NCBI RefSeq assembly: GCF_004005995.1
Contig: NZ_CP034767.1
Location: 2,170,001-2,234,000, forward strand
Reading direction: 5' to 3'
DNA from: Devosia sp. 1566
Lineage (GTDB): Bacteria > Pseudomonadota > Alphaproteobacteria > Rhizobiales > Devosiaceae
DNA length: 64,000 nucleotides
Below the pieces are notes generated by a model. That model did no database searches. It was not told the origin of the DNA and saw only the letters and a program-made list of their open reading frames with translations. Both the position numbers and the translations under genes were made by a program. Of this stretch, positions 16,783 through 27,746 are shown piece after piece (the first letter of the stretch is position 1; each line of letters opens with the position of its first letter).

Positions 16783-17103
16783 CTAGCCTTGGCGGCTCGG
16801 AACATGCACGACCAGGCCATCAAGGGCATCGCGCACCTTGATCTGGCAGCTCAGCCGACTCGAGGGCTTCACGTCAAAGGCGAAGTCCAGCATGTCTTCT
16901 TCCATGGCCGAGGGCCCGCCAACGGTTTCTTCCCAGGCCGGGTCGACATAGACATGGCAGGTGGCGCAGGTGCAGGCGCCCCCGCATTCGGCCACAATCC
17001 CCGGCACGCCATTCATGATGGCCGCCTCCATCACCGTCGCGCCGTTCTGGGCTTCGGTTTCGATGCGTTCCCCGTCCTTCTGAACGAATGTGATCTTGGT
17101 CAT
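16783..17103 (-). CDS. 2Fe-2S ferredoxin (second copy)
   Basis: A 106-residue adrenodoxin-like ferredoxin with ligands Cys40, Cys46 and Cys49 ([15 protein letters not shown]) and Cys86 (RLSCQI). It is a paralogue of the protein at 10477-10797, sharing the whole cluster region and the acidic docking helix, but has an extra Cys44 inside the cluster loop. Its ATG overlaps the stop of the methyltransferase gene (ATGA). It ends a prfC-methyltransferase-ferredoxin unit directly upstream of cysG, so it may serve sulfite reduction, Fe-S assembly or another monooxygenase-type partner; the partner is not evident. Confidence 0.92.
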
Positions 17104-18305
17104 GGCGATCCAGGCTGTTGTGTTTGGGCGTCGGAGTGAAGCAGGGTTTCGAGATAATGCTGGCGAATGCCGAACATGGCTTTGGTGTCGGCAATCTGGC
17201 GCAAGATCGTGTCGCGGTCGCGTCCAGCGCGACCATCTTTTTCGGCCACGATCAAATTGTTCTTGGGCGTGTGGGCATCCGAAACGAACTCGAAGACCTT
17301 GGTGCGGTATCCGCTCAGCTCCAGCAGCAGGGCCCTGAGCGTATCGGTGACCATCTCGGCCTGCCGCTCGAGGAACGTGCCATGCCGCAGCAGCACGCCC
17401 AGCCGATCGTCCGCCTGCCCGGCCTCCATCTCGCGCCGAATCTGCTTGTGGCAGCAAGGGGCCACCGCGATCAGCGCGGCCCCCGCCTTGATGCCCTTGT
17501 AGATTGCGTCATCGGTCGCGGTGTCGCAGGCATGCAGCGCGATAACGGCATCGGCGCCACCAGCGTTATAGTCCATGATCGTTCCGGGCACGAAGCTGAG
17601 GCCGGTAAAACCCGATTCTGCCGCGGTCGCATTGCCGTCTTCAACCAGCTTGGGCCGCATTTCAACGCCGACGATCTCGGCCGGACGCCCCTGCCCGGCA
17701 AGAAAGTCGTAGAGCGCAAAATCGAGATAGCCCTTCCCCGCGCCCATATCGACGATGCGGGGTGCGTCGGCCTTGATCCCCTGAATCAGTGGAGCAAAGA
17801 TCTCCACCATCTTGTTGATCTGCCTGAACTTGTCCTGCGCATCATTGCGCACGGTCCCGTCCTTGCCGGCAATCCCGAGTGCCTTGAGATAAGGCTTGTC
17901 GGTCTGGGTCAGCGGACGGTTCTTGGCGCGGTTGTGCTCGGTTGGAGCCGCTTCCCGCCCCTCGACCTCGGTGCGCTTGAGACGCACCTTGTCGCCATTG
18001 CGTTCAAAGCTCAGGTCGAACTCGGTGGTGGCGAGCTGGGCGCTGCGGAATTCGGCCTTGAGGCCGGCGCGCAGCGTTGCGAGCGCTTCGGGCTGAATCT
18101 GGTTCTTGATGATGTCGCGCGTCTTGTAGTGGAAGGTGAAGCTGAACTTCTCCACCCCCTTGGCGACGATCTTCTTGACGTCGACCGATTTGAGCTCGGG
18201 CTCGCTGCCATGGTAGCCACCAAGCTTGAGGCGCAACAACGTACCGGTGTTGAACGCGGTCTTGACGGCCAGAAGAAACTCTTCGATGCGCTCGGAAGTG
18301 GTCAA
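17100..18305 (-). CDS. SAM-dependent methyltransferase, METTL25-like (Methyltransf_32)
   Basis: A 401-residue protein. The central Rossmann methyltransferase domain has motif [20 protein letters not shown], followed by [15 protein letters not shown] and VAPCCHKQ, which are characteristic of the Methyltransf_32 family that includes eukaryotic METTL25. The N-terminal 150 residues are a separate charged domain. The start is TTG at 18305: AAGGA lies 6 bp upstream, inside the last codons of prfC, and the TTG overlaps the prfC stop. The frame continues upstream without another good start. Coupling to prfC suggests a translation-related substrate (rRNA, tRNA or a factor), but this is inference. Confidence 0.82.
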
Positions 18306-20091: not shown

Positions 20092-20484
20092 CTAATTTAA
20101 GTCGTCGGTCAGCATGCCGGCGATGAAGACGCTCACTTCTTCCACAGCCATGGCGAGGTCGGCAAAGCGCTCCGGCCCGACCACCGCAGCATCGGCCAGT
20201 TCCTCCTCGGCAGCCTGCGCCTGATCGGCAACCGTCCAGGCCCCTACTCCGCGTGCAGCGCCCTTGAGCGTGTGCAGGGCAATCCGCGTTTCCGCCCCAT
20301 CTTCGGCCCGCTGCAGCCGAGCCATATAGCTCTTGATCGTGTCGTGGAACAGCCGCAGCACTTCTTGCTCCAGTCCCTCGTCACCCAGGCACTGGCGAGC
20401 CAGGTGCAAGCGATCGATCGGGCCCCCTTTGTTGGCCTCGCTAGGCGAGAACTGCTGGGGGAGCGATGCTGAGGGATTGGCCAT
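20092..20484 (-). CDS. Hpt domain phosphotransfer protein
   Basis: A 130-residue histidine phosphotransfer protein. The phospho-acceptor is His71 in IALHTLKGAARGVGA, the canonical HxLKG(A/S) motif of Hpt four-helix bundles. No catalytic or receiver domain is present, so it would relay phosphate between a hybrid kinase and a response regulator encoded elsewhere. The ATG at 20484 has GGA 7 bp upstream; an upstream in-frame TTG is less likely. It is transcribed away from the GPR-like gene. A functional link to polar growth is possible but not shown by the sequence. Confidence 0.85.
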   Translation of the reverse strand: MANPSASLPQQFSPSEANKGGPIDRLHLARQCLGDEGLEQEVLRLFHDTIKSYMARLQRAEDGAETRIALHTLKGAARGVGAWTVADQAQAAEEELADAAVVGPERFADLAMAVEEVSVFIAGMLTDDLN

Positions 20485-20828
20485 GGTTTTCCACTTGAAC
20501 AACTACGGCCAAGAACGCGACCGGTTGTCCAAGCCTAAGGGGCTGGCGTGAATACCCTATTAAATCGACGGCGCAGTTTGCGCGCATCGAGCGGTCCGTG
20601 TTACCCACTGCAAAAATTAACCTTTGGGTAAGAAACCGTTCGGTTTGAGTTAAATTGCATGTACTACTTAACGATGAACCAGCGCGCGGCGGCGATGGTA
20701 GAGGACCGATGCAGGGCCATTTGCATCGAATTGAACCAATTTGGCGACAAGCCCGGCAACGGCTTGGCGTTAGATCACCCTCTTAAAACCGCCCCCGCTG
20801 CCAGGCCGATGCGAGAGTTGTAAAGAGT
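20485..20828. promoter_or_regulatory. 344-bp divergent intergenic region before the GPR-like gene
   Basis: No gene is visible here. It is AT-richer than its surroundings around 20610-20670. TTAA-CCTTTGG-GTAA at 20617-20631 resembles a CtrA full site (TTAA-N7-TTAA) with one mismatch, and further TTAA elements follow at about 20652 and 20667. CtrA control would suit a cell-cycle and polar-growth gene, but the match is weak. The promoters for Hpt (minus) and GPR (plus) must lie here. Confidence 0.3.
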
Positions 20829-23800
20829 ATGGCGAAAAACCCGACCCCCCCAGCAAACGATCCTGCGGCCCTAGCGTTTTCAGCGGTGGAAGACGCGCTG
20901 AAGGACTCGGTGTTCAATCTCGACAGCTCGGGCGACAAGCCCGCCGAAAAGCGCAACGATCCTGCCAAGTCAGAGCGCCTTTTGGCGGCCGACAAGATCG
21001 CGGCGCAGGCGGGACCGGTCGCCAATGACGATCGGTTCGGCACTTCCAAAATCCTTTACGGCCTGCAGACCCGCTCGTCAGCGACGCCAGTCTGGATGGC
21101 GGTGATCCTGTCGGTGCTGTGGCTGGGCGCCACCGGCGCGGCCGGCGCCATGCGCTATCGCGACCAGTTCGCCGATTTCGGCAGCTTTGTCGGCACCATC
21201 GATTTCATCTTCCTTGCCGCGCTGATGCTCTTGCCCGTGCTGGGCTTTTTTGCCGTCGCTACCTTGTTCCGTCGCGCGCAGGATCTGCGCAACGCGGCTT
21301 CCACCATCACCCAGGCTGCCATTCGCCTGGCCGAGCCCGAAGTCACCGCCGCCGACAAGGTTGCCTCGGTGGGCCAAGCCGTGCGCCGCGAGGTCAATGC
21401 GCTGGGCGACGGGCTGGAGCGCGCCCTGTCGCGCGCCGGTGAACTCGAAGTGATGATCCACAACGAGGTCACGGCACTCGAGCGCACCTATTCCGACAAC
21501 GAGTCGCGCATGCGCGCGCTGATCGCCGAACTCGCCAGCCAGCGCGAAAGCGTTCTGACCAATACCGAGCGGGTGCGCGAAGCCATTACCGAAAGCCATA
21601 CCGGGCTGGTCTTTGATCTCGATGCCATCTCGCAGCGCATCGCCGGCACCTTGGTGGAAAGCGGTGGCACCCTGACCCGCGCCCTTGAGACTGCCGGCAA
21701 TACGCTCAACAGCAGCTTTGGCGAGCGCACCGAAAACTTCGTTGCCCTGGTCGACAACCGCACCACCGACTTCATCTCCGCGCTCGACAACAGCGCTGGC
21801 CGGGTGTCTCAGAACTTTGACGAGCAAACCGCCGCCATGGCGCGCACGCTCGAGGCTCGCACGGGTGAGCTCGACTCCACCATCGAAACCCGCATGCGTG
21901 CGCTGACCGAGGCGCTCGATAGCCGCGTCGGCGATATCGCCAGTGCCATCGACGACCGCACCGCCCGGCTCGATGAGCGCAGCCGCGAACTGGCTGGCTC
22001 GTTTGAAGAACGCACCGGCAATCTGGCCGGCCTGATTGCCGACCGCAGCGCTACCCTGGCCGACACGCTTGAGCAGCGAAGCAACGCCCTGGCCGGCATA
22101 CTGGAAGACCGCACCAGCGTGCTCTCGGCCGTGCTGGAGCAGCGCGCCGGTGACCTGTCCGGAGCCCTGGGCGACCGCACCAGCGAAATCGCGACCCTGT
22201 TGTCGGAGGGCGGCAACAATCTTCTGGAACAGCTGCGCGAACGCGGCGACTCCGTCACCACAGCGCTCGACACCATCGGCAGCCGCATTGCCGAGGAGAT
22301 CGCTAACCGGTCGCGCGAAGCCGAGGGCATTCTGAACTCGGCCAGCCGCCAGATCGACGAAACCGTTTCCATCCAGCTAAATGGCATCGAGAGCCGCCTG
22401 CAAACGGCCCTGATCGAGCTCAATGGCGCTTTGGAAGATTCCTCCGAACGCGCCCGTTTGACCCTTTCCACGGCCGGACAGGATTCGCTGGGCCAGTTCG
22501 ATGCCCGCCTCGCCGAGGTCACCGGTGCGCTCGATAGCCGCCTGCACAGCCTTGACGATGTGATTGGCGACAAGGGCGAGCAACTGCTGCGTCGCCTTGA
22601 AGCGCAAAGCAGCAGCTTTGCCGCGCGCGCCAATGTTCTGGAAATGGCGCTGAACGAAGAATCGGGTCGCTTCAACGCCGTGGTTGCCGAGCGCACCCGG
22701 GAATTGGGCGAAGTGCTTGGTTCGCGCACCCAGGCCATCACCGATAGCCTCACCACCACCTCGCGTGAACTCGGTGAAAAGCTGGATGGCCATGCCGGCA
22801 TCATCGCCGAAGCCATTGATGGCCGCACCCAGCGTCTCGACGAAATCCTCACCGCCCGCAGCGGCGAAATCCGCGGCGCCTTTGAAAATCGCTTCACCGA
22901 AATCGATGAAGCGCTGGGCGCCCGCACCGGCGAACTCGACCAGGTGCTGAGCACCCGCGCCGGTGAGATCAACCGCGTCATGGGTGCCCATGCCGCCCGC
23001 GTCGAGCAGGTCCTGGGCAGCCGCGCCGGCGAAATCGACCAGACGCTGAGCGCCCGCACGGGGGAACTTGAGCAGGTACTCACCGCCCGCGCCGATCAGA
23101 TCGATCAGGTACTCGGTACACGCGCCAGCGAAATCACCGCGGCCATAACCATCCACACCGATGAGCTCACCGCGACGCTTGATGGCCGTGGCAACGAGTT
23201 CAGCGAGGCCATCCGCCTGCGCTCGCAGGAACTGGGCGAAACCCTACTCACCGGCACCGAGGCTTTCGACCAGGCCATTGCCGGCCGCACCCAGCGCCTT
23301 GCCGATACACTGCAGGACCGCACCGCGGCCCTTTCGACGCAGATCGAGGAAAGCGCTACGGGCCTCGCCGCATCCATCGACCAGCATACCGGCGCGATTT
23401 CGGCCCGCTTCCATCAGCACACCAACCGCTTCGCCAACGAAGTTGATCAGCGGGCAGCTGGCCTCGCCGCCATGCTCGACGAACGGGCGGCCGGCTTTAC
23501 CGGCACAATCGAAAGCCAGACTGCCGATCTGACCGAAGCGCTCGACAGCCGCACCGGCGCATTTATCAATGCGCTCGATACGCGTGCTGCCGACCTCACC
23601 GGCGCGCTGGACAGCCGCCTGACGGATATCACCGGGTCGATGGACAGCCGCGTCGCCGATATCACCGGCGCCCTCGATACCCGCGTTACCGATTTGACCG
23701 GGGCACTCGACACCCGTTTGAGCGGCATCACCGGGGCTCTGGATCGCAGCGTTGCCGAACTGTCTGGTGCGTTCGACAGCCGCGTTGGCGGGATCACTGG

Positions 23801-26800
23801 CGCCCTGGACCAGGGCGTATCGCAGATCACGCAAGCGCTGGAAGGTCGTCTGGAAGGCATCAGCGGTGTGCTTGATCACGGCGTTTCCCAGCTCGGCGAC
23901 ACCCTCGATAGCCGCCTTGGCGGTATTGCTGGCACGCTGGATCAGGGCGTGTCGCAGCTGGCTGGCGCCCTCGACAGCCGCGTCGGCGGCATTGCCGTCA
24001 CCCTCGATCAGGGCGTGTCGCGCCTGACCGGTGCGCTTGACAGCCGCCGCGCTGGGTTCACCGAAGCCCTGGATAGCCGCACGGCCGAGCTCACCGAAGC
24101 ACTCGACACCCGCACCGCAGAACTGACCCAGGCGCTCGACAGCCGCAGCTCGGGCCTTACCGGCGCGCTCGATGCCCGCCTGACGGAGCTGACCGGGGCC
24201 CTTGACGGCCGCGTCAGCGACTTTACCGAGGCCCTCGACGGCCGCGCCTATAGCCTCAACGCAGCACTTGGCGCGCGCACTGACGAGCTCGCTTCCGCGC
24301 TCGACGAGCGCACGGCGAACCTTTCGGGCCAGATCGCTGCCGGCACGGAAAAGCTCAGCACCGAGCTCACCACGCAGGCTGCGGCACTCACCGGTGCGCT
24401 TGATGCGCGCACCAATGAGCTGGCCGGCACGATCGGCATGCGCACCCACCAGCTCAACGACGCACTGGGTGCCCGCACCCAGGCGCTGTCCGACACGCTG
24501 GCGACGCACACCACCTCCATCGGCGAAACCATGGGCCTGCGCACGGCCGAGCTGGCCGACACCATCGCCCAGCAGAGCGAAGACGCCCGCACCCGCATCG
24601 ATGCCTCGCTGCGCGAAGTCACCGACACCATGGCCGAACGCGTCAATGGCATGTCGGACGTGATCGCCAGCAAGGTTGCCGAGGTGAACACCCATCTGGG
24701 CGTTGGGCTCGACAGCGCCGTGGCCAAGATCTCGGATGCCGAAAATGGCGTTGCCGCCCGTCTCGACGCGGTCAGCGCCACTGTGGGCGAAAGCGCGCGC
24801 AAGGCCGCCGATCTCATCGAGACCGGCGTCAACATGGCGCGTCGCGCCATCACCGACATGGTGGACCAGCGCTTGGGCACCCTGCCCGAAGCCATCACCG
24901 CCCGCGCCGATATCACGGCCGAGCGCCTGGCTGCGCTCAACGCCTCGATCAACACCTCGATCACCCAGTCCATGGCGGATCTGGAAGCGGGCGCTGATCG
25001 CATCGAGGAAACCATTTCGACGCGCATCATCGCGGCAACCCACAATATTGCCGAGGATATCAGCGCCACCGCCAATAGCATGGACGCAGCGGTTCGCGCG
25101 GCGATGAACCAGATCCGCTCGGCTGCGGCTGGCATCGACGAGGTCGTTTCGGTCAAGGCCGTTGGTGCGGTCGATGCGATCGGCAATCAGATCGCCGATC
25201 TCAACCGCTCGGTGGAAGAGCAGACCAATGCCTTTGCGGCGCTGGTGACCGAGCGCTCCGACCAGTTGCAGGGCGCCCTGCTCAGCCATGGCAATGTGCT
25301 GCGCGACGCCTTGGCCGACAATGCCCGCGAAGCCGAAACCATCATGTCGGCCTCGACCTCGCGCATCCTGTCCGATGTCACCGCGGCACTGGGCAAGCTC
25401 AACGACTCCAACCTGCTGCTGCAGCGGGTGCTCGATGCCTCGACCGCCAATCTGGCGAGCCTCGAGAGCAGCGTTGCCCAGCAGACTGCGACCTATTCGG
25501 CCACCGTTCGCGAAGCGATCGGCCAGACCGAAGAAGCCGGCCAGATGGTCAGCCAACATGTCGGTGCGCTGCAGAGCACCATCCGCACCATGGTGGACGA
25601 GTTCTCCTCCATGCTCGGCAAGCTGGACGCGGAAGCGGCCAATATGGACCGCGCCTCCTCGGCCCTTGCAACCACGGGCGACTTCGCGGTGGAAACGCTG
25701 GAAGAACGCCGCAACGCCATGGACGCTCTGGCGGCCAGCTTCACCTCGCGTGCCGACGACATCGACAACCGCATGCGCATGTTCGCGCAGTCGATTGCCG
25801 AAACCGTCAACGACACCGAACGCCGCCTGATCGGTGCGCGTCGGGCCATGGACGAGGCCCTGGGTGAAACCACTCATACCGTTGCCGATACGCTGGCCAG
25901 CACCACTTCGGCGGTGACCGAAGCGCTCAGCCAGACTTCGGCCCAGGTCGCCGAGGTGATCCAGGCCAATACCAGCAGCGTCAATGATGCGATCTACGCA
26001 ACCAATGAGCGCCTCAACTCGACGCTCAATGCCAGCACCGAACGCTTCGCGGCGACGCTGAATTCCAGTGCGGCCCAGGTCGATGGCGCCCTTTCCCGCG
26101 CCAGCGACGCGGCGACCGGTGCGCTCAACGAAACCACAAGCACCATCCGCTCGGCCCTTTCCGAACAAACCGCGCAGGTCAATTCGGCGCTGGAAGAAAA
26201 TGCCAACCGCGTGGCCGACATCCTGACGTCGGCCGCCGGCAGCGTCACCGATGTGCTCAGCGCCACCACCAGCACGCTGGCAGAAACCATCAGTGATAGC
26301 GCCGTTTCGGTGCGCAATGCGGTTTCGAGCAATACCGGAGTGTTGCGCCAGGCAATCGACCAGAGCACGGGCACGTTCCGTGAGGCTCTGGAGCAAACCA
26401 GCGGCGATGTGGCATCGCGCCTGGGTGATTTCCGCAGCACCGCGGAAACCGAAAGCGGGCGCGCCAGCGCCGCGCTCCAGGAAGCCCAGCAGCAGATGAT
26501 CGGCGAAATGCAGCGGGCTCTGGAAGAAGCAACGCGCCGGTTCAACGACACCGCCCGCGCCATGCGCGACACCGCCCGCGAAGTGGGCTCCGAGCTCGAA
26601 GCGACCCGTTCCGAGCTGGCCCGCGGCGTTGCCGAACTGCCCGAGGAAACCCGCGCCAGTGCAGCCGCCATGCGACGCGTGGTTGCCGAGCAGATCGAGG
26701 CCCTGAGCGAGCTCAACGCCATTGTGCGCGCGCAGCCGGCCACCCATGACCTGCACGACCGCCGTCCGGCCCAGCGCGCCAACCGTTATGAGGCACCGCG

Positions 26801-27515
26801 CGCCGAAGCCAGCTATCCGCAGCCGCGCGAAGCTGCGCCCGAGCCCGTGCGTCAGGCCCGGATGGAGCCCGCCCGGCCCGCCCAGCCAGAGCCACAGCGC
26901 CAGCCGGCACCCGAGCCGGTCCGCCAAACCCTGGTGGATCCGATCCGTGCGCCCGAGCCCGCTCGTCAGCCGCTGGTCGATCCGATCCGCGCCCCTGAGC
27001 CGGCTCGTCCGGCGGCAGTCCAGCCGGCCGCACCAGTCCAGCCAGCTGCACCGGTTCAGCCCGCAGCACCTGCGGAAGCTGAAGCAAGCCCGGCCGCGCA
27101 GGATACCGGTGGCTGGCTGCGTGATGTGCTGCGCAATGCATCGGCCAAGCAGGCCAGCACCCAGCAGCAAGCGCCGCAGCAGGGTCTTTCGGGGCTGACC
27201 GAGGATATCGCCCGCGCCATCGACGATGCCGCTCTGGGCGAAGCCTGGGCTCGCTACCAAGCCGGGGAATCCAACGTGTTCTCGCGCCGAATCTATACGC
27301 TGACCGGCCAGGGCACCTATGACGATGTCCGCAAGCGCGTGCAGCGCGACGCCGATTTCGCCCGTACGGCCCAAGCTTACATGGGTGAGTTCGAGCAGCT
27401 GCTGAAGCGTGCGGCTGCCGGTCCCCGTGCCGCTGCCGAAACGCGCGAATATCTGCTGTCCGATCGCGGCAAGGTCTACACCATGCTGGCCCATGCCAGC
27501 GGGCGCCTGAACTAG
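20829..27515 (+). CDS. GPR/RgsE-like giant coiled-coil polar growth protein
   Basis: A 2228-residue membrane-anchored protein. Residues 1-86 are polar and end in a FGTSKILYGLQTR motif; two membrane helices follow (about 87-108 and 124-147). Residues about 340-1245 are dominated by 11-residue repeats of the form GALDSRVxxIT, an apolipoprotein-like amphipathic helix; helical coiled coil continues to about 1970. A Pro/Glu/Arg-rich linker (about 1972-2090) precedes a conserved C-terminal domain (EDIARAIDDAALGEAWARYQ and RKRVQRDADFARTAQAY). This architecture and size match Agrobacterium GPR (about 2100 residues, a ring at the growth pole) and Sinorhizobium RgsE. It should scaffold polar peptidoglycan synthesis. 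It is a single gene with a strong terminator; the long antisense open frame is a repeat artefact. Confidence 0.87.
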   Translation: MAKNPTPPANDPAALAFSAVEDALKDSVFNLDSSGDKPAEKRNDPAKSERLLAADKIAAQAGPVANDDRFGTSKILYGLQTRSSATPVWMAVILSVLWLGATGAAGAMRYRDQFADFGSFVGTIDFIFLAALMLLPVLGFFAVATLFRRAQDLRNAASTITQAAIRLAEPEVTAADKVASVGQAVRREVNALGDGLERALSRAGELEVMIHNEVTALERTYSDNESRMRALIAELASQRESVLTNTERVREAITESHTGLVFDLDAISQRIAGTLVESGGTLTRALETAGNTLNSSFGERTENFVALVDNRTTDFISALDNSAGRVSQNFDEQTAAMARTLEARTGELDSTIETRMRALTEALDSRVGDIASAIDDRTARLDERSRELAGSFEERTGNLAGLIADRSATLADTLEQRSNALAGILEDRTSVLSAVLEQRAGDLSGALGDRTSEIATLLSEGGNNLLEQLRERGDSVTTALDTIGSRIAEEIANRSREAEGILNSASRQIDETVSIQLNGIESRLQTALIELNGALEDSSERARLTLSTAGQDSLGQFDARLAEVTGALDSRLHSLDDVIGDKGEQLLRRLEAQSSSFAARANVLEMALNEESGRFNAVVAERTRELGEVLGSRTQAITDSLTTTSRELGEKLDGHAGIIAEAIDGRTQRLDEILTARSGEIRGAFENRFTEIDEALGARTGELDQVLSTRAGEINRVMGAHAARVEQVLGSRAGEIDQTLSARTGELEQVLTARADQIDQVLGTRASEITAAITIHTDELTATLDGRGNEFSEAIRLRSQELGETLLTGTEAFDQAIAGRTQRLADTLQDRTAALSTQIEESATGLAASIDQHTGAISARFHQHTNRFANEVDQRAAGLAAMLDERAAGFTGTIESQTADLTEALDSRTGAFINALDTRAADLTGALDSRLTDITGSMDSRVADITGALDTRVTDLTGALDTRLSGITGALDRSVAELSGAFDSRVGGITGALDQGVSQITQALEGRLEGISGVLDHGVSQLGDTLDSRLGGIAGTLDQGVSQLAGALDSRVGGIAVTLDQGVSRLTGALDSRRAGFTEALDSRTAELTEALDTRTAELTQALDSRSSGLTGALDARLTELTGALDGRVSDFTEALDGRAYSLNAALGARTDELASALDERTANLSGQIAAGTEKLSTELTTQAAALTGALDARTNELAGTIGMRTHQLNDALGARTQALSDTLATHTTSIGETMGLRTAELADTIAQQSEDARTRIDASLREVTDTMAERVNGMSDVIASKVAEVNTHLGVGLDSAVAKISDAENGVAARLDAVSATVGESARKAADLIETGVNMARRAITDMVDQRLGTLPEAITARADITAERLAALNASINTSITQSMADLEAGADRIEETISTRIIAATHNIAEDISATANSMDAAVRAAMNQIRSAAAGIDEVVSVKAVGAVDAIGNQIADLNRSVEEQTNAFAALVTERSDQLQGALLSHGNVLRDALADNAREAETIMSASTSRILSDVTAALGKLNDSNLLLQRVLDASTANLASLESSVAQQTATYSATVREAIGQTEEAGQMVSQHVGALQSTIRTMVDEFSSMLGKLDAEAANMDRASSALATTGDFAVETLEERRNAMDALAASFTSRADDIDNRMRMFAQSIAETVNDTERRLIGARRAMDEALGETTHTVADTLASTTSAVTEALSQTSAQVAEVIQANTSSVNDAIYATNERLNSTLNASTERFAATLNSSAAQVDGALSRASDAATGALNETTSTIRSALSEQTAQVNSALEENANRVADILTSAAGSVTDVLSATTSTLAETISDSAVSVRNAVSSNTGVLRQAIDQSTGTFREALEQTSGDVASRLGDFRSTAETESGRASAALQEAQQQMIGEMQRALEEATRRFNDTARAMRDTAREVGSELEATRSELARGVAELPEETRASAAAMRRVVAEQIEALSELNAIVRAQPATHDLHDRRPAQRANRYEAPRAEASYPQPREAAPEPVRQARMEPARPAQPEPQRQPAPEPVRQTLVDPIRAPEPARQPLVDPIRAPEPARPAAVQPAAPVQPAAPVQPAAPAEAEASPAAQDTGGWLRDVLRNASAKQASTQQQAPQQGLSGLTEDIARAIDDAALGEAWARYQAGESNVFSRRIYTLTGQGTYDDVRKRVQRDADFARTAQAYMGEFEQLLKRAAAGPRAAAETREYLLSDRGKVYTMLAHASGRLN
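23535..24326 (+). repeat. 24 tandem 33-bp units encoding hendecads
   Basis: Twenty-four consecutive in-frame 33-bp units (residues 903-1166) without a single phase shift, consensus (G/E)ALD(S/T)R-x-x-x-(I/L)T. Units alternate in part between a DSRVGGI and a DQGVSQI form (about residues 980-1060), which suggests duplication of two-unit blocks. An 11-residue period gives three helical turns and a long straight amphipathic helix. Repeated DNA of this kind is prone to copy-number change. Confidence 0.9.
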
Positions 27516-27536
27516 TCGGAACTGCAACAAACGAAC

Positions 27537-27566
27537 AAAGGCCCCGGTAAAAACCGGGGCCTTTTT
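27537..27566 (+). terminator. Strong rho-independent terminator of the GPR-like gene
   Basis: Twelve-bp perfect stem AAAGGCCCCGGT / ACCGGGGCCTTT with an AAAA loop, running into TTTTT, 21 bp after the stop codon. Confidence 0.92.
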
Positions 27567-27746
27567 GTTGGGCGTGGCCACTGTGAATTCCCGTCAACGG
27601 CCGAGCCCAGACGCGGAGCTCAAGCAGCCCCGGGTCGGTGCTCGCTGGCAGCCCCCTCTGCTCACGAGGATGCGGCTGAGGCGACCAGGCAAGCTGACGG
27701 CAACCTGTCTCGAAAAAACCAGCCCCTCCGCCGACGCGCGCCGGGC

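Follow-up and report, generated by a model that had tools for sequence, protein, structure and literature searches.

The window, by which we mean the whole stretch of 64,000 nucleotides that was analyzed, carries on its forward strand a gene that is in all likelihood the orthologue of GPR/RgsE in a Devosia-like bacterium, judging from its occurrence throughout the order and from its architecture. GPR of Agrobacterium (Atu1348, 2115 amino acids) and RgsE of S. meliloti (SMc00190, 2089 amino acids) form a ring at the growing pole (PMC8262873, PMC7327166). The frame in the window begins with ATG, at a start codon that matches that of a Devosia homologue (P0002), and encodes 2228 amino acids. The following features were located in it.

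20829..27515, forward strand: scaffold gene, very probably of the GPR/RgsE family, 2228 amino acids (open frame, PF01442, profile matches)
20856..20918, forward strand: motif near the N terminus around DPAALAFSAVEDALK, at residues 10-30; relatives from the order have a similar one (judged by eye, without statistics)
21021..21035, forward strand: ANDDR motif, residues 65-69, invariant in all six rows of alignment A2
21090..21152, forward strand: predicted transmembrane helix 1, residues ~88-108 (hydropathy)
21177..21272, forward strand: predicted transmembrane helix 2, residues ~117-148 (hydropathy)
21276..21473, forward strand: conserved stretch after the transmembrane pair, at residues 150-215 and within the N-terminal module common to TipN (alignment A2, hhalign, TipN profile)
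21339..26639, forward strand: predicted helical rod of about 161 hendecads with one proline, residues 171-1937 (periodicity, composition, AF2 model of residues 900-1300)
22898..23135, forward strand: 33-bp tandem array of 7.2 copies within the rod (repeat scan)
23596..23806, forward strand: 33/66-bp tandem arrays within the rod (repeat scan)
23870..24147, forward strand: 33/66-bp tandem arrays within the rod (repeat scan)
26796..27092, forward strand: proline-rich linker, residues ~1990-2088, containing 42- and 18-bp tandem arrays (composition, repeats)
27108..27143, forward strand: short motif GGWLRDVLRNAS at residues 2094-2105; many relatives have a similar one (alignments A1 and A7)
27177..27512, forward strand: predicted all-helical C-terminal domain, residues ~2117-2228, found across Alphaproteobacteria (profiles, AF2)

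A sequence-only reading of this DNA had described a protein of 2228 residues with two N-terminal membrane helices, and the frame and hydropathy agree with it. The proline-rich linker and conserved C-terminal domain that it named are likewise present. A frame of 1445 amino acids on the opposite strand (23244-27581, reverse) was considered as a gene and rejected. In 4 of 15 representatives of the order (L255, L260, L265 and L266) the orthologue is covered by an antisense frame that exceeds the sense frame in length, so the one in the window is probably a side effect of repetitive, GC-rich coding sequence.

The neighborhood of the gene is partly conserved. Within 20-kb stretches around the orthologue, a 2Fe-2S ferredoxin gene is present in all 15 representatives of the order and an Hpt-domain gene in ten. 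The ferredoxin gene of the window (PF00111) lies at 16783-17457 on the reverse strand. The Hpt-domain protein (PF01627, E 5.2e-8, with an HTLKG motif) is encoded at 20095-20502 on the reverse strand, divergently and about 330 bp upstream of the scaffold gene, and it is possible that it links phospho-signaling to polar growth. One representative has MlaE/ABC/MlaD phospholipid-transport genes near the orthologue (L266:1248-4787), with homologous ORFs in seven or eight others.

Periodicity, length and charge of the rod

Large hydrophobic residues in the rod recur with a period of 11/3. Over residues 171-1937 the power at this period reaches 120.3; 1000 shuffled sequences averaged 1.04 and never exceeded 8.52. 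At 3.5 (the heptad) the power is 0.1, and at 25/7 it is 1.9. In 220-residue segments the optimum lies at 3.65-3.67 between about residues 221 and 1540 and again over 1651-1980; the segments 1431-1650 and 1541-1760 peak at 3.59-3.60 instead. Over residues 661-1430, two of the eleven hendecad positions are occupied by LIVMFYW in 97% and 96% of cases, and a third usually holds Thr, Ala, Val or Leu. Among the 1,767 residues of the rod there is a single proline, at 1353, and the longest proline-free run is 1182 residues. The earlier estimate of about 900 residues of 11-residue repeats was thus correct as to the array and too low as to its length. The array had also been called extreme, which holds in the genus, where the frame is the longest of 71 matching genomes, but not in the order, where the frames listed reach 2940 amino acids.

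The period differs between the order and its relatives. It is 3.62-3.665 in the 15 representatives of the order, 3.65-3.665 in 59 members of the genus and 3.63-3.665 in 117 GPR-like proteins from protein searches (134 proteins, less 17 that were dropped for want of the C-terminal motif). Outside the order, 39 proteins have periods of 3.56-3.62, and 120 TipN-like proteins have periods of 3.57-3.59. The ranges inside and outside the order touch at 3.62 (L254 and L372 inside, L134 outside). These two members of the order belong to five Rhizobiaceae-like relatives, a family assignment inferred from names, of which the remaining three have periods of 3.64-3.655. The period of an undistorted helix is given as 3.63 (PMC9858780), and the figures in that paper suggest that the rods of the order (3.62-3.67) are nearly straight and that the others (3.56-3.62) are weakly left-handed.

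Two simple accounts of these rods were rejected. Hendecads do not appear to be a consequence of length, since outside the order length and period show no correlation (Spearman coefficient of -0.08, P 0.61, 43 proteins). Nor do rods lengthen only with the loss of MreB, a match to which is present in 18 of the 19 listed genomes outside the order that have frames of at least 1500 amino acids; the exception (G418) is 69% complete.

A comparable rod is known from Scy, which acts in polar growth. Scy and FilP, relatives of DivIVA, have a DivIVA-type N terminus unlike that of the window protein; we claim no homology, and the likeness would be one of convergence. In Streptomyces, Scy consists almost entirely of hendecads over more than 1000 residues, as the window rod does, and it is grouped with other proteins of division and polarity (PMC9858780).

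Measured between anchors, the rods of 60 sequences from the genus range from 1220 to 1741 residues, a set that omits 11 of the 71 matching genomes (ten with frames below 1400 amino acids, and G638, whose gene is near a contig end). TipN rods, from Brevundimonas and near relatives, have 448 residues in 67 of 68 sequences and 444 in the other, after 12 of 80 were dropped for want of an anchor. In 27 independent pairs from the genus with at least 70% identity, 57 of 63 indels have a length exactly divisible by 11, a figure partly favored by the method, in that aligners prefer in-register gaps in repetitive arrays. Over 1,628 pairs with at least 60% identity, 6959 of 8046 indels of at least five residues are multiples of 11 where about 731 are expected, although the same events are counted many times over. 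The total difference in rod length is a multiple of 11 in 11 of the 22 independent pairs that differ in length; anchor gaps and the six non-multiple indels explain some of the remaining pairs. Rod length from anchor to anchor leaves a remainder of 8 on division by 11 in 21 of 61 sequences, all of which are among the 25 with a gap-free C-terminal anchor.

We call selection for helical phase on rod length plausible and go no further, because recombination of 33-bp units could yield a quantum of 11 residues by itself. It is quite conceivable that the mutation process, through unequal recombination or slippage of such units, generated the multiples of 11 without selection for phase. The gene contains 33- and 66-bp tandem arrays, and their recombination alone gives multiples of 33 bp. 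The indels that are not multiples of 11 point the other way, as they are mostly 11k+7 with some 11k+4, which roughly keeps the seam and is not an even spread. This argument is weak, since few ancestral events are being recounted.

It is rather unlikely that the rod is a lipid-binding, apolipoprotein-like array, bundled or lying on the membrane, that organizes the lipids of the growth pole and for which protein scaffolding is secondary. The protein matches PF01442 (E 2.6e-88, over the curated cut-off) and PF07464, as would be expected of such an array; but PF01442 also matches non-lipid amphipathic helices, and a match to it does not by itself establish lipid binding. Genes for MlaE-type phospholipid transport occur near the gene in eight or nine of the 15 representatives of the order (by ORF homology, and by Pfam in L266). 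In the window, ten neighboring ORFs scanned with Pfam included none assigned to Mla, and three of them had no match. A single-sequence AF2 model of residues 900-1300 (pTM 0.23) has helices of 144 and 248 residues, with a low-confidence break at 1041-1056 and no bundle. The rod is also acidic (net charge of -115 with 10 Lys over residues 150-1985) and so ill suited to anionic membranes, and related rods outside the order have the same ends but a different period. The absence of an Mla assignment, the long helices, the charge and the related rods stand against such a lipid-binding array, for which the authors of PMC8262873 have argued.

Relationship to GPR, RgsE and TipN

We consider it highly likely that the gene is a GPR/RgsE orthologue whose product, tethered to the membrane, serves as a scaffold for the growing pole. 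The assignment draws on C-terminal matches throughout the order, the PF01442 match, synteny, the lack of an MreB match and the published properties of GPR and RgsE. The latter two proteins are known to us from descriptions in papers, so the likeness to the window protein is one of described features and not a direct sequence match. Both are described as having two N-terminal transmembrane helices, a helical region of great length with a PF01442 match and low-complexity regions close to the C terminus, and as occurring throughout Rhizobiales. The window protein resembles them in each respect: it has a predicted continuous helix on the scale of their roughly 1,700 residues that matches PF01442, and a low-complexity region followed by a conserved C-terminal part. 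It differs in being slightly longer, with a rod period of 3.66.

A profile of the C-terminal domain (A1) matches 236 of the 249 genomes of the order, two of them (G002 and G212) twice. Eight of the 13 genomes without a match are less than 90% complete, and five are at least 90% complete (G036, G068, G135, G153 and G208). Within the genus 71 of 75 genomes match, and none of the four without a match is more than 77% complete. In the complete genome of the window, this profile and that of the N-terminal module each match one place. A search with residues 1990-2228 found 79 proteins, with names that include Devosia, Xanthobacter, Bradyrhizobium, Pseudochrobactrum and Nitratireductor; Liberibacter and Bartonella proteins are also among the relatives found by protein search. 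A homologue in a eukaryotic protein set (P0037) is probably bacterial contamination.

Rhizobiales are reported to be without MreB (PMC8546619). At E 1e-20, we found no MreB match in the complete genome of the window or in four other sampled genomes of the order, and a match in 354 of 380 genomes of the class outside it. The sequence-only reading had proposed a GPR/RgsE polar-growth scaffold from a Devosia-like lineage; the 236 matching genomes, PF01442, synteny and the lack of MreB bear out the scaffold, and the names of the best homologues the lineage. It is very improbable that the gene belongs to some other coiled-coil family whose low-complexity features arose by convergence, because, although long helical arrays draw spurious matches (here the ZorA and SpiroCoCo profiles, both below their curated cut-offs), the orthology rests on the non-repetitive ends, each with one place in the genome, and on synteny.

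Depletion of GPR or RgsE leads to round or curved cells, and over-production to ectopic poles (PMC8262873, PMC7327166). Removal of the C-terminal 221 residues of Agrobacterium GPR blocks complementation (PMC8262873), and RgsE of S. meliloti interacts with TolQ, RgsA and RgsS (PMC7327166). RgsE is dispensable for growth in S. meliloti, yet cell shape and growth rate suffer (PMC7327166); the description as an essential organizer may therefore not apply to every species.

The C-terminal domain had been singled out as a separate module, and it is indeed folded with confidence by AF2 (block-mean pLDDT of 95-97 over residues 2125-2224) and more widespread than first supposed. It is absent from Pfam and NCBIfam, and profile searches detect it in 147 of the 380 genomes of the class outside the order. 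No sequence in the PDB matched the C-terminal profile convincingly (best E 0.02), and no known fold was found in fold-match lists, although absence from these does not make the fold new. The N-terminal module is far harder to trace, as its profile A2 alone matches 43 of 385 genomes of the class; all profile sets share descent. With a hydropathy threshold, 20 representatives of the class show two clearly separate peaks in ten cases, overlapping peaks in two and a single peak in eight.

Some family members have no rod. Frames of 297-408 amino acids with a divergent C-terminal domain (L249-L253 and L284-L288) are such rodless relatives, and in three genomes (G269, G530 and G607) the rodless form is a second copy beside a long one. 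A reduced genome of 0.9 Mb (G316) retains a family member of 647 residues (L217).

The C-terminal matches extend to Caulobacteraceae, including Brevundimonas halotolerans (G311) and Brevundimonas sp. Root608 (G524), where such proteins are named "tipN" or "polar localization protein TipN" in the sources. The domain is divergent in this family (hmmsearch E 1.8e-9 to 4.4e-8 for three proteins). Profile comparison with hhalign, made without intermediates and with 35 GPR sequences against 64 and 74 of 80 TipN sequences, aligns the N-terminal transmembrane modules of GPR and TipN with a probability of 95.9 (P 5e-9, 133 columns) and their C-terminal domains with a probability of 92.1 (P 6.3e-7, 61 columns). 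Five mismatched or rod-rod comparisons gave probabilities of at most 2.2. In the genome of the window, the best match to the TipN profile is the transmembrane module of the window gene (E 2.6e-5, the next match being 0.07), and the C-terminal part of this profile has no match by itself. By these profile comparisons, both ends of the window protein are homologous to those of TipN and follow one another along the chain as they do there, and the rods give no match (probability 2.2).

The TipN side of the comparison consists of Brevundimonas-type proteins named tipN rather than the TipN sequence of C. crescentus, which has 882 amino acids (PMC13170164). Their rod has a constant length of 448 residues and a period of 3.57-3.59, whereas rods in the genus of the window have 1220-1741 residues and periods of 3.65-3.665. 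Because the rod of the window protein is not of the TipN type, we regard the protein as a homologue of TipN and do not class it as TipN. A further difference is that TipN is reported to regulate MreB (PMC4460556), to which the genome of the window has no match. A resemblance of GPR to TipN has already been asserted in print (PMC8546619), the two have been termed "analogous" (PMC13170164), and a 2015 review treats TipN as specific to Caulobacter (PMC4460556). Among the passages covered, searches pairing both names brought up no paper on a domain common to them.

Proposed working and origin of the scaffold

We propose that the N-terminal transmembrane pair anchors the scaffold in the inner membrane. 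Given the hendecad register and the near absence of proline, the 1,767-residue helix would be expected to pair up in a coiled coil or bundle that is nearly straight. An alpha-helix rises by about 0.15 nm per residue, and at full extension the rod would measure as much as about 265 nm. Such a long, stiff rod might span a distance or supply the struts of the ring. The flexible proline-rich linker would present the C-terminal domain, which probably binds partners and might dock them or close the ring. Rod length would be nearly neutral, and helical phase would not.

It has been argued that GPR must fold, with a 1,700-residue helix put at 600 nm (PMC8262873). This figure needs correction: 1,700 helical residues at 0.15 nm amount to 255 nm, close to the 200-nm diameter of the ring. 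Foci of N-terminal GFP-GPR fusions (PMC8262873) mark the positions of the N-termini only. We infer that the rod is extended and not folded back. Two regions of GPR were modeled as an extended helix that runs into a three-helix bundle of apolipoprotein type (PMC8262873), and these bundle models are a poor fit to a fully extended rod.

As to origin, we tentatively suggest that GPR and TipN derive from one ancient alphaproteobacterial pole organizer, with the transmembrane pair and the C-terminal domain as its core, and that a hendecad rod converted a marker into a ring after the loss of MreB. The rod would be an optional spacer, absent in some members and about 2,000 residues long or longer in others. 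In the ancestor of Hyphomicrobiales, with MreB gone, a weakly left-handed coil with a period of about 3.57 would have become a near-straight hendecad rod. This rod would gain and lose 33-bp units, and the pole marker would become the growth-pole ring itself.

The gene itself adds one member to an already known family, and the wider interest lies at the level of that family. An uncurated, conserved C-terminal domain ties a growth-pole ring protein to TipN, and the rod has a different period and a variable length in an order without MreB. With ends common to both proteins, experiments in Caulobacter and in rhizobia can inform each other. The C-terminal domain is a compact target with a confident model, and the steps of 11 residues offer a clean test of rod length versus helical phase. 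GPR is a leading scaffold candidate for wall growth at one pole without MreB in the rod-shaped Hyphomicrobiales.
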